This document shows positions 24,526 through 50,072 of a stretch of DNA of 51,739 bases, piece by piece. Every line of letters begins with the position of its first letter. The first letter of the stretch is position 1. The stretch is from Porticoccaceae bacterium (GTDB taxonomy: Bacteria; Pseudomonadota; Gammaproteobacteria; Pseudomonadales; Porticoccaceae): the NCBI GenBank assembly GCA_018654575.1, contig JABILI010000084.1, positions 1 through 51,739 of the forward strand, read 5' to 3'. The translations under genes and the position numbers were made by a program. The notes under the pieces were generated by a model. The model was not told the origin of the DNA and ran no database searches. It worked only from the letters and a program-made list of their open reading frames with translations.

Positions 24526-25002
24526 TTATTTGTAAACCACATCGTCGATTTCATATTCGACATCACCACTGGGTGCTTTAACCACAACAACATCACCGAT
24601 TTCTTTGCCTATTAGCGCGCGTGCAATCGGAGACTGGTAGGAAATTTTTCCCTGTTTCACATCAGCTTCGTCATCACCCACCAGTCGATAACTTACTGTT
24701 TCATCAGTATTAATGTTAATGATAGTTACTAGCGCGCCAAAGATCACACGGTCACCCTGAGGCATCGTGGATATATCAATAACCTGTGAGTTTGATAGCT
24801 TACCTTCGATATCTTGAACACGGCCTTCAGCAAAACTCTGCTGTTCGCGCGCGGCATGATACTCGGCATTTTCTTTAAGATCACCATGCTCACGTGCGGT
24901 TGCGATAGCCTCAATAATGCCCGGGCGTACCACTTTAATAAGATGATCTAGCTCTTTTCGTAGGGCCGCTTCGCCCGCTACTGTCATGGCATTTTTTTGC
25001 AT
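24526..25002 (-). CDS. greA: transcription elongation factor GreA
   Basis: Rescues backtracked RNA polymerase by stimulating transcript cleavage. 158 residues: N-terminal coiled coil with the tip acidic residues ([20 protein letters not shown]) and a C-terminal FKBP-like domain ([19 protein letters not shown]). The start ATG overlaps the carB stop (TAATG), so greA is translationally coupled to carAB, the common gammaproteobacterial order. Confidence 0.97.
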
Positions 25003-28000
25003 TAGTTAATTTCCTTGTGCAGCGACTGTAAGCTACGCACTTTAATTTCACCTTCCATCCCTCGGGTAAATCCTAGCGCCTCACAAACAGCACTGCCACC
25101 GGCCATGGTGGTGGTGTAATAAACTCGATGCTGTTCGGCGCTGGAGCGAATTGTCGAGGAGTCAGAGATCGCCTGACGCCCTTCTGTAGTGTTAATAATA
25201 AGATCAATCTTATCACTTTTGATCATATCGACAATATGCGGACGCCCCTCTTTGACTTTATTAACTAGCTGCACTGGACATCCAGACCGCTCGATAATAT
25301 CTGCCGAGCCTTTGGTTGCAATTAACTTAAATCCAAGATTATGGAGCTTTTTAGCCAGCGCTGGTAGCTGTTCTTTATCGCGTTCACGAACACTTATCAA
25401 GGCCGTGCCCTTAGCTGGAATTTCATCGCTAGCGCCCAATTCTGCTTTGCCATAAGCCTCAGCAAAAGTTTCGCCAACACCCATCACTTCGCCGGTAGAC
25501 TTCATCTCTGGCCCAAGAATAGGATCGATGCCGGGGAATTTATTAAAGGGGAAAACCGCTTCTTTAACGCTGAAATAAGGAGGGATAATTTCTTTGGTGA
25601 AATTTTGCGATTCAAGAGTCTGGCCGACCATACAGCGAGCCGCTACTTTTGCTAATGACGCTCCGATACATTTGGATACAAATGGCACTGTGCGCGAGGC
25701 GCGAGGATTAACCTCGATTACATAGATCTTGTCGTCTTGTAGCGCCAGTTGAACATTCATCAGTCCTCGTACACCCAGTTCAACAGCCATCTTGCGACAC
25801 ACTTCACGCATATCATTCTGGACATCTTCGCTGAGGCTGTAAGGCGGCAGTGAACAGGCTGAATCACCGGAGTGAATGCCTGCCTGCTCAATATGCTGCA
25901 TAATCGCGCCGATAACGACTTGTTTGCCATCACTAACGGCATCCACATCCATCTCAATGGCATTGGGTAGGAAGAAGTCGAGCAGTACCGGGCTATCATC
26001 AGATACCTGCACTGCAGTCTTCATATAATGACGCAACTCGTCTTCTTTGTAGACGATTTCCATGGCGCGACCACCCAGTACATAAGAAGGGCGGACAACC
26101 AATGGATAACCAATTTCTTTCGCCAACTCAACAGCCTGGTCTGCGCTACGTGCAGTTGCGTTACGCGGCTGCAGAAGACCGAGTTTATCGATCATCTGCT
26201 GGAAGCGTTCTCGGTCTTCGGCACGGTCAATAGCGTCTGATTTGGTACCTACAATTGGTACCCCTGCAGCTTCGAGAGCTCGTGCCAGCTTAAGTGGTGT
26301 CTGACCACCAAACTGCACAATCACACCTTTGGGTTTCTCTACGCGTACAATTTCTAGTACGTCTTCCAACGTAACTGACTCAAAGAACAGCCGATCTGAG
26401 GTGTCGTAATCTGTGGATACAGTCTCTGGATTACAATTGACCATAATAGTTTCATAGCCATCTTCGCGCATGGCCAGAGCAGCATGTACACAACAATAAT
26501 CAAATTCAATACCCTGACCTATTCTATTGGGGCCGCCACCTAGAATCAGAATTTTATCTTTGTCACTAGGGCGTGCTTCGCACTCTTCTTCGTAGGTAGA
26601 GTACATATAAGCTGTGTCTGTTGCGAACTCAGCAGCGCAGGTGTCAACGCGTTTATACACTGGGTGTATATCAAAACCATAGCGCACTTCGCGCATTTGC
26701 GTTTCGCTGCAACCTAAAATATCAGCCAGCCGTCGGTCGGCAAAGCCTTTCCGCTTGAGACGGTAAAGGGACTCCTCGGTGAGATCGGCAAGTGCTGTAC
26801 CCTGCAAACTCATCTCATCTTTAATAATGTCTTCGATTTGTACCAAGAACCAACGATCAACCTTAGTGATCGCAAAAATCTCTTCTACACTCATACCCTG
26901 ACGGAAGCCGTCGGCGAGATACCAGATGCGATCTGGCCCCGCCACTGCAAGTTGATTTCTCAACACTGCAGAGGAATTTTCATCGTCTAGATCTAGCAAA
27001 GGATCAAATCCAGCAACACCCACTTCGAGACCACGTAATGCTTTTTGCATTGATTCTTGGAAGGTTCGACCAATCGCCATAACCTCACCCACAGATTTCA
27101 TCTGTGTGGTCAAATTCTTGTCTGCCTGATCAAATTTCTCAAAGGCAAAGCGTGGCATCTTAGTCACTACATAGTCGATGCTTGGCTCGAATGAAGCAGG
27201 CGTGGCACCACCCGTGATTTCATTTTGCAATTCGTCAAGGGTATAACCCACAGCCAGTTTCGCCGCTACTCGCGCAATTGGGAAGCCAGTGGCTTTTGAG
27301 GCCAGTGCTGATGAACGAGATACTCTCGGGTTCATTTCGATAACAATCAACCGACCATCATCTGGATTAACCGCGAACTGCACGTTGGAGCCCCCCGTCT
27401 CTACACCGATCTCACGCAATACCTTAATCGAGGCATTTCGCATGATTTGATACTCTTTGTCGGTCAGCGTCTGAGCGGGCGCAACGGTAATTGAGTCACC
27501 AGTGTGAATACCCATAGGATCTAGGTTTTCGATAGCGCAAACAATAATGCAATTGTCTTTGCGATCGCGAACTACTTCCATTTCGAACTCTTTCCAGCCA
27601 ATCAGCGACTCATCAATAAGGAGCTCATTAGTTGGAGACAGATCAAGACCACGGCGACAAATTGTTTCGAACTCTTCACGATTGTAGGCAATACCCCCGC
27701 CCGAACCACCCATAGTAAATGATGGCCGAATGATGCACGGGAAACCAAACCTATCTGCGACTTGAAATGCCTCTTCCAAGCTATGCGCTATACCGGAATT
27801 AGGAGTATCCAAATCAATCGCTTTCATAGCCTTGTCAAAGCGCTCACGATCTTCGGCTTTGTCGATTGCATTTGCGTTAGCGCCAATCATTTCTACGCCA
27901 AATTCATCCAGCACACCATGCTTAGCAAGATCTAAAGCACAGTTTAATGCTGTCTGACCGCCCATAGTAGGTAGTAAAGCGTCAGGCCGCTCCTGTTCAA

Positions 28001-28232
28001 TAATTCTAGCCACAGTTTTCCACTCAACAGGCTCGACATACGTAGCATCGGCCATTGAGGGGTCAGTCATAATAGTTGCGGGATTTGAGTTAACTAAAAT
28101 AACTCTAAACCCTTCTTCACGTAACGCTTTGCACGCTTGAGCTCCTGAGTAGTCAAACTCACAAGCCTGTCCAATAATAATAGGACCTGCGCCAAGTATG
28201 AGAATGCTTTTCATGTCTGTTCTTTTTGGCAT
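25002..28232 (-). CDS. carB: carbamoyl-phosphate synthase large subunit
   Basis: 1076 residues, the full length of the E. coli enzyme, with two homologous ATP-grasp halves (about 1-400 and 550-935), an oligomerisation domain between, and a C-terminal MGS-like allosteric domain (from about 940, [13 protein letters not shown]) where UMP and ornithine act in relatives. The start [22 protein letters not shown] and [11 protein letters not shown]-type loops are diagnostic. Makes carbamoyl phosphate for both arginine (argF) and pyrimidines. Starts 17 bases after carA. Confidence 0.98.
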
Positions 28233-28249: not shown

Positions 28250-29392
28250 CTAGTGGTTAGCTTCCATTAATTCAATAAAGTGGTCGAACAGAACTGATGC
28301 TTCATGGGGTCCAGGGCTAGCTTCAGGGTGCCCCTGGAAGCTAAAGGCTGGTTTGTCAGTGCGATGTATGCCCTGCAGCGAACCATCAAATAACGAGCGA
28401 TGCGTGGCAATCAGGTTAGCGGGTAAACTAGTTTCATTAACGGCGAAACCGTGGTTTTGGCTGGTGATCATTACCATATTGTTTTTAAGGTCTTCAACCG
28501 GATGGTTGGCACCATGGTGGCCAAACTTCATCTTTACCGTTGTGCCGCCCGAGGCCAGCGCTAATAACTGGTGGCCCAGGCAGATGCCAAAGACTGGAAT
28601 ATTGGTTTCGAGGATTTCACCAATTGCCTGAATAGCATAATCGCAAGGCTCTGGATCACCAGGGCCATTAGACAGGAATATACCATCTGGATTCATCGCT
28701 AAAACATCCGACGCTGGGGTCTGTGCTGGCACAACAATCAGTTCACAGTCACGATCAACGAGCATACGAAGAATGTTGCGCTTAACACCATAATCATAAG
28801 CCACAACCTTAAACTTGGTGCTGCTAGGCTCTTTGCTTTTGTGGCCAACACCCAATCCCCAACTGTGTTCAGACCACTGATAGCTAGTCGCAGTAGTCAC
28901 CTCTTTAGCCAAATCCATACCTTTAAGGCCAGCAAACTCTTTAGCGGCAACGAGTGCCTGCTCGTCACTGACATTACCTGCCATAATGCAGCCGCTCTGA
29001 GCGCCAGTTTCACGCAGTATACGGGTCAATTTACGCGTATCAATGTCAGCAATACCTAGAATCCCTTTGTCCTTTAAATATTGGTCTAGGCTTTGTTCGC
29101 TGCGGAAATTTGATGCGAGTAGAGGAAGGTCACGAATGACCAAGCCTGCCGCCCAAATAGAATCGGATTCTTGGTCTTCTTGGTTAACACCTACATTACC
29201 AATATGAGGATAGGTCAGGGTTACAATCTGGCGAGCATAAGAGGGGTCAGTGAGGATTTCTTGGTAACCGGTAAGGGCGGTATTAAAAACAACTTCACCA
29301 ACTGAGAGGCCATCTGCACCAATAGCTATTCCTCTAAAAATTGTTCCGTCTGCAAGCGCAAGTACGGCTTCCCGGCGAGTCTGGGGATTCAC
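28250..29392 (-). CDS. carA: carbamoyl-phosphate synthase small subunit
   Basis: Glutamine amidotransferase subunit delivering ammonia to CarB. 380 residues; N-terminal CPSase domain (about 8-140) and class I GATase domain with the catalytic triad Cys271 (GICLGHQ), His355 and Glu357 (GHPEASPG). The start is GTG at 29392 with a consensus AGGAGG four bases before it. Preceded by about 195 bases of leader containing a structured RNA and an intrinsic terminator, suggesting regulation after initiation. Confidence 0.97.
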
Positions 29393-29483
29393 ACAACCTC
29401 CTAAATAGTAGATGTTTCGCTTATCTTAGCCAAAGCTATATAAACAAATCCGAAAGTGGTAGCAGAGTCATACCTAGGTTTGC

Positions 29484-29520
29484 AAAAAAGCGAGATGAAA
29501 CAATTTGTCTCATCTCGCTT
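29484..29520 (-). terminator. strong intrinsic terminator between dapB and carA
   Basis: On the minus strand, a perfect 11-bp stem (AAGCGAGATGA with TCATCTCGCTT, 11-nt loop) runs directly into a T tract; counting the pairing Ts, six occur in a row. It lies 157 bases after the dapB stop and 91 bases before the carA start. Because a good promoter lies between dapB and this terminator, it may work as a carA attenuator rather than simply as the dapB terminator. Confidence 0.85.
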
Positions 29521-29541
29521 AATTAAAATATTCTGCTGTAC

Positions 29542-29587
29542 GCTAACCTCTCAGAACGAGACCGCTTTTTAGTGCTGCGGTGTTAGC
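29542..29587 (-). ncRNA. candidate cis-regulatory three-way-junction RNA in the carA leader
   Basis: Read on the minus strand from the predicted transcription start: helix P1 GCTAAC (29587-29582) with GTTAGC (29547-29542); P2 ACCGC (29581-29577) with GCGGT (29565-29561), loop of 11; P3 CTC-GTTCT-GAG (29560-29550). P2 stacks directly on P1. An A-rich stretch of the P2 loop and 3' arm (AAAAAGCG, 29570-29563) is complementary to CGCTTTTT in the terminator (29492-29485). I do not recognise a named RNA family. Structure inferred by eye. Confidence 0.5.
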
Positions 29588-29592
29588 TAAAC

Positions 29593-29621
29593 AGTATAGG
29601 GAAAGGGACATATATTGTCTA
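29593..29621 (-). promoter_or_regulatory. sigma-70-type promoter for the carA leader
   Basis: Minus-strand TAGACA and TATACT separated by exactly 17 bases (each five of six consensus). The start of transcription would fall at about 29586-29587, the first base of the leader helix. It lies 57 bases after the dapB stop. Confidence 0.65.
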
Positions 29622-29677
29622 TTTATCTGTATGAAAAATTCACTCTTAAATTAAGTTAAATAGTCACATCGGTTTTT

Positions 29678-30481
29678 CTATTTAAGACCCAAGACGTCCT
29701 GCATATCAAAGAGTCCAGCTGACTGCTTATCTATCCATTTGGCTGCGCGAATTGCGCCAAGAGCAAATGCCATTCTGCTAGACGCCTTATGTGTAATCTC
29801 AACGCGCTCACCTTCAGAGCCGAACAGCACAGTATGATCACCAATGATGTCTCCAGCTCTAACAACTGAAAACCCAATGGCTTCGCTCCCTCTTTCACCC
29901 GTTAGACCTTGACGATCATAAACGGCAACCTCACCTAAATCTCGACCCAGTGCTCCAGCCACAGCCTCACCAAGCGATAATGCTGTACCAGATGGAGCAT
30001 CAACTTTGTGCCGATGATGGGCTTCACTAATCTCAATGTCGACGTTATTACCAAACACTGATGCCGCTAATTCAGCCAGCTTGAAACACAAATTTACACC
30101 GGTGGCGAAATTTGAAGCCATACAGATGCTCGTATGTTCACTAGCTTGTTGAACGACTTGGACTTGATCAGTAGTCAGGCCAGTAGTACCTACCACCATT
30201 TTTTTTCCGTGCTGCCGGCAAAACTCAGCATTCTCAACCGTGGCTACTGGGACACTGAAATCTATTAGAATATCAAACGAATCAGCAAGCTCGTCCAACG
30301 AACTAACCACCGCAATATTATTGCGCCCCAGGCCAGCAATTTCACCCGCGTCAGCACCAATGAGTGAGCTGCCGGAATGCTCAATAGCAACAGTTAACTG
30401 CATTTCATCGGTGCTAGCAATAGCCTCCATTAAGGCTTTACCCATTCTGCCGCCGGCACCTGTAATGGCGATATTCTTCAC
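29678..30481 (-). CDS. dapB: 4-hydroxy-tetrahydrodipicolinate reductase
   Basis: NAD(P)H-dependent reductase in lysine/diaminopimelate synthesis. 267 residues; Rossmann motif GAGGRMG at 8-14, and the catalytic His155 and Lys159 in [16 protein letters not shown]. The start is GTG at 30481 with GGGAG seven bases upstream. Follows dnaJ by 62 bases; an ATTAGAT/ATCTAAT hairpin in that gap (30512-30534) lacks a T-run, so co-transcription with dnaJ is likely, as in Pseudomonas. Confidence 0.97.
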
Positions 30482-38727: not shown

Positions 38728-38997
38728 TTATCGTCGTAAACCTAGCTTCTTAATTAGCTGGCTATAGCGATCGATATTTTTACTCTTCAAATAATCGAGT
38801 AATTTACGACGCTGATTAACCATACGAATTAAACCACGCCGTGAATGGTGATCTTTCTTATGATCGCCAAAATGGCCCTGTAGCTTATTGATATTTACGG
38901 TTAGCAATGCAACCTGAACCTCAGGTGAACCTGTATCATTTTCACAGGTAGCATGTTCCGCTACGATTGCTGCTTTTTCTTCTGCACTTAGTGCCAT
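38728..38997 (-). CDS. rpsO: ribosomal protein S15
   Basis: 89 residues from the ATG at 38997, the exact E. coli length, with a GGAG ribosome site; the upstream in-frame codons to 39012 are not part of it. Diagnostic segments: [23 protein letters not shown] and [14 protein letters not shown]. Binds 16S rRNA in the central domain. Between truB and pnp, as usual. Confidence 0.98.
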
Positions 38998-39072
38998 GAT
39001 GATTTTCTCCAATATGCGAATTAAAAAATTCAGGCTTGCCCGCGCATATTTACAGACAGCCTAACTTGATAT

Positions 39073-45362: not shown

Positions 45363-45439
<77 letters not shown>

Positions 45440-49987: not shown

Positions 49988-50072
49988 TGGTGCGGATGGG
50001 GGGACTTGAACCCCCACGACCTAAGTCACCAGCCCCTCAAGCTGACGCGTCTACCAATTCCGCCACATCCGC
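49988..50072 (-). tRNA. tRNA-Leu(GAG)
   Basis: 85 bases with encoded CCA and the long variable arm of class II tRNAs. Anticodon GAG in loop TTGAGGG. The acceptor stem GCGGATG pairs fully with CATCCGC, and the T arm GGGGGTTCAAGTCCCCC is perfect. Downstream of secG on the same strand, the conserved secG-leuU arrangement. Confidence 0.97.

Follow-up and report, generated by a model that had tools for sequence, protein, structure and literature searches.

Why should carAB, whose products begin the synthesis of RNA building blocks and arginine, be preceded by a promoter that leads, with no gene between, into a transcription terminator? We asked this of a 51,739-nucleotide stretch of DNA (the window) from a member of the marine SAR92/HTCC2207 genus. 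On the minus strand, the gap between dapB and carA holds, in order, a promoter, 6 bases, CTAAC, a three-way-junction RNA, an AU-rich spacer, a strong intrinsic terminator, and only then carA. About 90 bases separate the terminator from carA, which has a strong ribosome-binding site in the window, and any read-through from dapB would run into the same terminator as the carA leader. The features are listed below in order of transcription; the three genes were named from their open reading frames and from the order dapB-carA-carB.

29678-30481, minus strand: dapB, the upstream gene.
29593-29621, minus strand: sigma-70-type promoter, with -35 TAGACA at 29621-29616, a 17-nt spacer and -10 TATACT at 29598-29593 (from sequence and genus comparison).
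29542-29587, minus strand: three-way-junction RNA beginning at the predicted first base (from the RNAalifold consensus of 38 leaders, pair counts and a covariance model).
Junction stem P1, minus strand: CTAAC 29586-29582 with GTTAG 29547-29543 (RNAalifold consensus of 38 leaders).
Junction stem P2, minus strand: CCGC 29580-29577 with GCGG 29565-29562 (same consensus).
Junction stem P3, minus strand: TCTC 29561-29558 with GAGA 29552-29549, loop RUUCY (same consensus).
29552-29562, minus strand: antiterminator strand A, GUCUCGUU at 29562-29555 plus UG at 29553-29552 (10 pairs with strand B in 38/38 leaders).
29507-29517, minus strand: antiterminator strand B, which is the terminator 5' arm, GAUGAGAC at 29514-29507 plus CG at 29517-29516 (from its pairing with strand A).
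29484-29520, minus strand: intrinsic terminator, with a 14-pair stem (29520-29507/29501-29488, one G.U), a 5-nt loop and a T6 tract at 29489-29484 (from sequence and fold).
28250-29392, minus strand: carA.
25002-28232, minus strand: carB, the next gene downstream of carA.

The promoter is present as originally predicted (TAGACA-17-TATACT, 29621-29593, minus strand). A scan of 28900-30200 lists five promoter-like sites against 2.0 in shuffled sequences, and the match does not by itself prove a promoter. Across the genus, all 30 tabulated gaps with a junction share a -35 of TRGACA, the 17-nt spacing and 6 nt between the -10 and CTAAC. The upstream promoter, identified by consensus match only, scores 10 or 11 of 12 in 36/36 genus gaps (a set that includes a few identical ones), and in every one of these it lies upstream of an intrinsic terminator, with both elements inside the dapB-carA gap. 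Beyond the terminator, promoter-like sites of at least 9 of 12 occurred in two of the same 36 gaps, where shuffles predict 2.5. The consensus scan thus found no promoter above chance between terminator and carA in these gaps, and carA should therefore depend on read-through. Start-site switching, of the pyrC type, was also considered for carA; we dropped it because the surroundings of the predicted first base are not conserved.

The terminator had been described as a perfect 11-bp hairpin. It is there, and its stem is longer, at 14 pairs including the G.U. Our pattern scan of this region did not list the terminator. Over 38 distinct leaders, 97.6% of its alignment cells are paired, with one compensatory pair; this set was obtained by removing identical leaders and dropping L092 and L110, whose leader start was misread by the script. 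By eye, AGCAGA at 29537-29532 is complementary to TCTGCT at 29466-29461 (both minus strand) and could close a helix around the terminator in the window and a few relatives; the helix is absent from others.

The predicted three-way junction folds as described, from the predicted first base (29587-29542). Covariance model R1, built from 31 distinct junction sequences with the window's own among them, places it at 29541-29587 with 65.2 bits. Taken alone, the junction is not unusually stable, with a minimum free energy of -14.7 kcal/mol for a 61-nt stretch and a z of only -1.25; the 110-nt leader reaches -40.5 kcal/mol (z -5.6), owed largely to the terminator. The junction is, however, nearly invariant, whereas the sequence past the terminator is not. 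Neither P1 nor P3 varies in any of the 38 distinct leaders, and neither stem therefore offers covariation support. P2 shows one compensatory G-C to A-U exchange in six sequences, which probably form one clade, along with one C-G to U-G change. Compensatory changes, which the original prediction looked for in both P1 and P2, are thus weakly represented, by one pair in P2 and none in P1. Covariation support is thin because the junction sequence is so constant, and conservation is the stronger argument. For the whole structure, 98.7% of cells are paired, versus 30-57% when the partners are slid. In one leader alignment, L107, L108 and L119 entered as near-empty rows, and its conservation line is accordingly understated. 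An Rfam search of the window returned no family for the junction, and the earlier remark that it belongs to no described RNA class holds for that database.

We also reassessed the proposed switch, in which AAAAAGCG of the junction was to pair with CGCTTTTT of the terminator. Both words lie where they were said to lie, but the pairing is exact in only 11 of the 38 distinct leaders, and we rejected it as a conserved switch. Another pairing is present in 38/38: junction GUCUCRUU pairs with the terminator's 5' arm and, after one mismatch, YG pairs with CG, for 10 pairs in total. Three of the 10 vary among the leaders and every variant stays paired. The varying R and Y lie in the P3 loop, where the junction alone would not require a purine and a pyrimidine. 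The mean interaction energy of the two strands is -14.6 kcal/mol over 38 leaders, as compared to an average of -8.6 for column permutations, and permuted junction columns reach the observed energy in 2/500. A second control, in which junction columns were read backwards, gave a mean of -11.5 kcal/mol, which is nearer to the observed value than the permutations are. Single sequences set against dinucleotide shuffles gave modest results (P 0.003-0.113 for the six tested, 0.088 for the window), and in L014 the best duplex in this test was another pairing.

Energetically, the two upstream folds are often close. Before the terminator 3' arm is made, the junction and antiterminator folds of the nascent RNA lie within 3 kcal/mol of each other in 30/38 leaders; the switch reading is weakest in L014, L016, L107 and L108, where the junction is favoured over the antiterminator by 4 to 12 kcal/mol. 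Once the terminator is complete, the state that contains it has the lower energy in 38/38. Computed direct-path barriers between the folds are high, with a mean of 13.3 kcal/mol. Through shared strands, the antiterminator fold is exclusive of the folded junction and of the terminator.

The junction is closely tied to carA throughout the genus. Of 50 genus genomes, 41 matched R1 strongly, and 41/41 of these matches sit in the dapB-carA gap with carA directly next; the remaining nine genomes comprise seven with a rewritten leader and two without a detectable carA. Promoter, junction, terminator and carA keep the same order in 30/30 genus gaps with the junction. A regulon beyond carA was rejected on the finding of one strong match per genome in 40/41, the extra copy in G029 being a contig-end stretch adjoining dapB. 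An exact pattern from the junction's 3' half matched 40 stretches in a collection holding one genome per species (two stretches came from one assembly), with carA directly downstream in 38 and the other two cut by the locus or contig end. These matches were assigned to SAR92, HTCC2207, Porticoccaceae, or the wider Cellvibrionales, Pseudomonadales and Gammaproteobacteria. Viral contigs held no exact match to the pattern. Outside the genus, the covariance model found no match in nine genomes from four other genera of the family, and its strong matches across 390 genomes of the order were nine genus members only; weak relatives in the order may be missed because the filters there were stricter and 15 candidates were scored per genome. 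Four weak matches, two in other families (E 0.009 and 0.046) and two in the genus (E 0.058 and 0.098), fell on contigs without carA or its leader.

We also compared what stands in the place of the junction in other leaders. The seven rewritten genus leaders (L061, L062, L063, L065, L150, L151 and L164) come from small assemblies of about 1.2-1.7 Mb. They keep the promoter, the terminator and the word CCGAGAGGTT, and an A.C mismatch in their terminator leaves GAUGAGAC intact; no antiterminator beyond chance was found in any of the seven (P 0.34-0.65). All nine sister-genus genomes have a promoter and a terminator by eye, and eight of the nine leaders showed no antiterminator beyond chance. L159 (genus g26, same family) carries a long antiterminator whose sequence is unrelated (-20.4 kcal/mol, P 0.002), the only one among the 10 leaders in that scoring and possibly an independent solution.

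Upstream of carA in 21 other families, each represented by one genome, we found 19 terminators with a similar (G/A)CG(A/G)G 5' arm (18 by script and L067 by eye). A promoter of at least 9 of 12 stands above the terminator in 15 of these families, and dapB was recognised just upstream in nine. An antiterminator beyond chance was absent from 17 of the 18 scored leaders of other families. L071 (P 0.003) was the only outlier among all 23 leaders scored (18 from other families, 4 from congeners and 1 from an extra carA). In that analysis the script chose a wrong terminator for L067, detected no terminator in L076 and L087, and picked up only weak promoters in L079, L081 and L086. The leader between promoter and terminator differs from lineage to lineage. 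The RNA itself is thus not common to other families, whereas the layout is common to most of those examined. Because promoter and terminator recur across lineages while the leader differs, the frame appears to be old and the RNA inside it to change. In one genus genome we also observed a second, divergent carA with its own promoter-terminator gap (L088, on G007 contig 17, 69% identity); this contig is probably foreign.

A comparable layout is known from Pseudomonas. According to the available portion of PMC4997734, the orthologous P. syringae leader (P32) has one start site and a mapped 3' end at the terminator, reporter expression rose when the leader stem-loop was disrupted or removed, and expression of the full-length fusion fell with uracil. 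Arginine raised expression, arginine with uracil had little effect, and qRT-PCR gave no difference with both (same portion of PMC4997734). On this account, the orthologous leader behaves like an attenuator. Pseudomonas and SAR92 share the place between dapB and carA, the single promoter, the short leader and the intrinsic terminator ahead of carA, but the RNA differs: in the genomes searched, the SAR92-type junction had strong matches only within its genus. For P. aeruginosa carAB, possible pyrimidine attenuation and a leader peptide are cited in the same portion (PMC4997734), whereas the window leader lacks such a peptide. We found no description of the SAR92 carA leader in the open-licence literature; this RNA appears to be undescribed, while the general layout is known from Pseudomonas. 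Where pyrimidine control in Pseudomonas stands at "possibly" attenuation in the part of PMC4997734 available, the SAR92 version supplies a candidate switch.

Taken together, we consider it fairly likely that the leader is a transcription attenuator of the carAB operon. The original prediction had read the locus as an attenuator or riboswitch. Its layout stands, with promoter, leader and terminator kept together in the genus and in most other families; the specific exclusive pairing that it proposed does not. In our proposed mechanism, RNA polymerase would start from the promoter at 29621-29593, and the first ~45 nt would fold as the three-way junction. If the junction stays closed, the terminator would form and a short RNA of ~100 nt would be released, leaving carAB off. 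If the junction opens instead, the 3' half (GUCUCRUUCYG) would capture the terminator 5' arm CGAGAUGAGAC, no terminator would form and transcription would read through into carAB. We infer that such a switch operates in cells and, by analogy with Pseudomonas, that pyrimidine sufficiency may favour the closed junction and termination. The junction leader is functional-looking. The antiterminator does not account for the invariance of the 5' strand of P1 and of the junction bases, and this invariance suggests that something recognises the junction; the near-invariant junction would then be the sensor, with a ligand or a protein keeping it closed.

A more specific version of the attenuator can be offered tentatively. 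The ~45-nt junction might be a very compact riboswitch whose direct ligand is a pyrimidine nucleotide, carbamoyl phosphate, arginine or glutamine and which frees its 3' half as the antiterminator. It would be specific to SAR92 and one of several unrelated sensors housed in an order-wide promoter-terminator frame. The order seems to keep the promoter and terminator and to swap the RNA between them, and it would thus suit the study of how new RNA sensors originate.

The main alternative to recognition of the junction is a race that needs no ligand. The outcome would be set by how fast polymerase passes the AU-rich spacer and the U-rich arm of the terminator, with low UTP slowing it in favour of the antiterminator and high UTP favouring the terminator. 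Base composition is consistent with this, with a U content of 0.34 in the spacer and 0.36 in the terminator loop and 3' arm versus 0.22 in the junction, as is the closeness of the nascent folds in 30/38 leaders. In sister genera, too, the leaders differ between a promoter and a terminator that are kept, a pattern that a kinetic device would accommodate more readily than an aptamer. The computed barriers, however, probably make the exchange too slow unless they are overestimated, and the invariance of P1 and the junction bases is left unexplained. We regard the race as rather unlikely.

More doubtful still is a plain terminator that ends the dapB transcript and allows fixed partial read-through into carAB, the short RNA being no switch, or serving only as a 5' stabiliser or a trans-acting sRNA. 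The site does lie downstream of dapB on the same strand, and deletion of P32 in P. syringae gave no auxotrophy and little phenotype, as stated in the available portion of PMC4997734. That same portion also reports the higher expression after stem-loop removal, which speaks against a mere terminator (PMC4997734). Nor would a plain terminator account for a promoter kept between it and dapB in 36/36 genus gaps, or for a junction that is nearly invariant when the stretch past the terminator is not.

PyrR-dependent attenuators set a folded upstream element against an antiterminator and a terminator on a pyrimidine operon, the same logic as in the SAR92 leader. The conserved word CYGAGAGGUU is similar to ARUCCNGNGAGGYU, the PyrR-binding consensus, with 10 of 12 specified letters agreeing by manual count, and CYGAGAGGTT is kept in the rewritten leaders too. 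PyrR control of the carAB leader is nevertheless not supported, and we consider it very improbable. A search for PyrR (NF003549) found none in G000 at E <= 0.001, and 0/56 genomes exceeded the family cut-off; the best match among 35 genus genomes reached 2.8e-7, and seven other-family genomes at 1e-32 to 1e-37 were still under the cut-off. Rfam gave no PyrR-element match to the leader at E <= 10, and by eye most of the pairs that would flank the consensus loop are G.U pairs or mismatches.

Leader-peptide attenuation, of the kind reported for carAB of P. aeruginosa, is just as hard to credit. In 12/38 leaders the P2 loop contains an ATG that starts a frame of 14-28 codons, but by eye this ATG sits ~17 nt into the RNA and lacks a Shine-Dalgarno sequence. 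In 23/38 leaders, among them that of the window, the stretch from CTAAC to the terminator is free of ATG, GTG and TTG. With a start codon in 15/38 leaders and none in the window, a leader reading frame is not conserved. By eye, the frame from the P2-loop ATG runs through the junction with several arginine codons in L007, L011, L013-L017, L107, L121-L123 and L126.

Two previously described RNAs resemble the leader in part. The carA motif (SRC-12-1) is a betaproteobacterial riboswitch candidate with no known ligand in the available portion of PMC8632094; like the window element, it is a structured RNA ahead of carA with a promoter above. It is, however, an extended imperfect hairpin beside the ribosome-binding site, is thought to act on translation and occurs mostly in Polynucleobacter, whereas the window element, from a gammaproteobacterium, is a three-way junction that precedes a terminator and lies ~150 nt away from the start codon. 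The second, Rfam RF01676 (P31, a Pseudomonas sRNA), is modelled on the opposite strand of the same kind of terminator, and it matches inside a relative's dapB-carA gap (L079, 742-818, minus strand, 52.6 bits). In the window, RF01676 scores 27.2 bits against a gathering threshold of 40, on the plus strand, and its match spans the terminator and sequence past it but leaves out the junction. With this score below gathering and on the opposite strand, we rejected the window leader as a P31 member.

Elsewhere in the window, Rfam identified a ribosomal S15 leader (RF00114), a known autoregulatory RNA, at 38941-39063 on the minus strand (60.3 bits), and two tRNA genes at 45366-45439 and 49991-50072, both on the minus strand.
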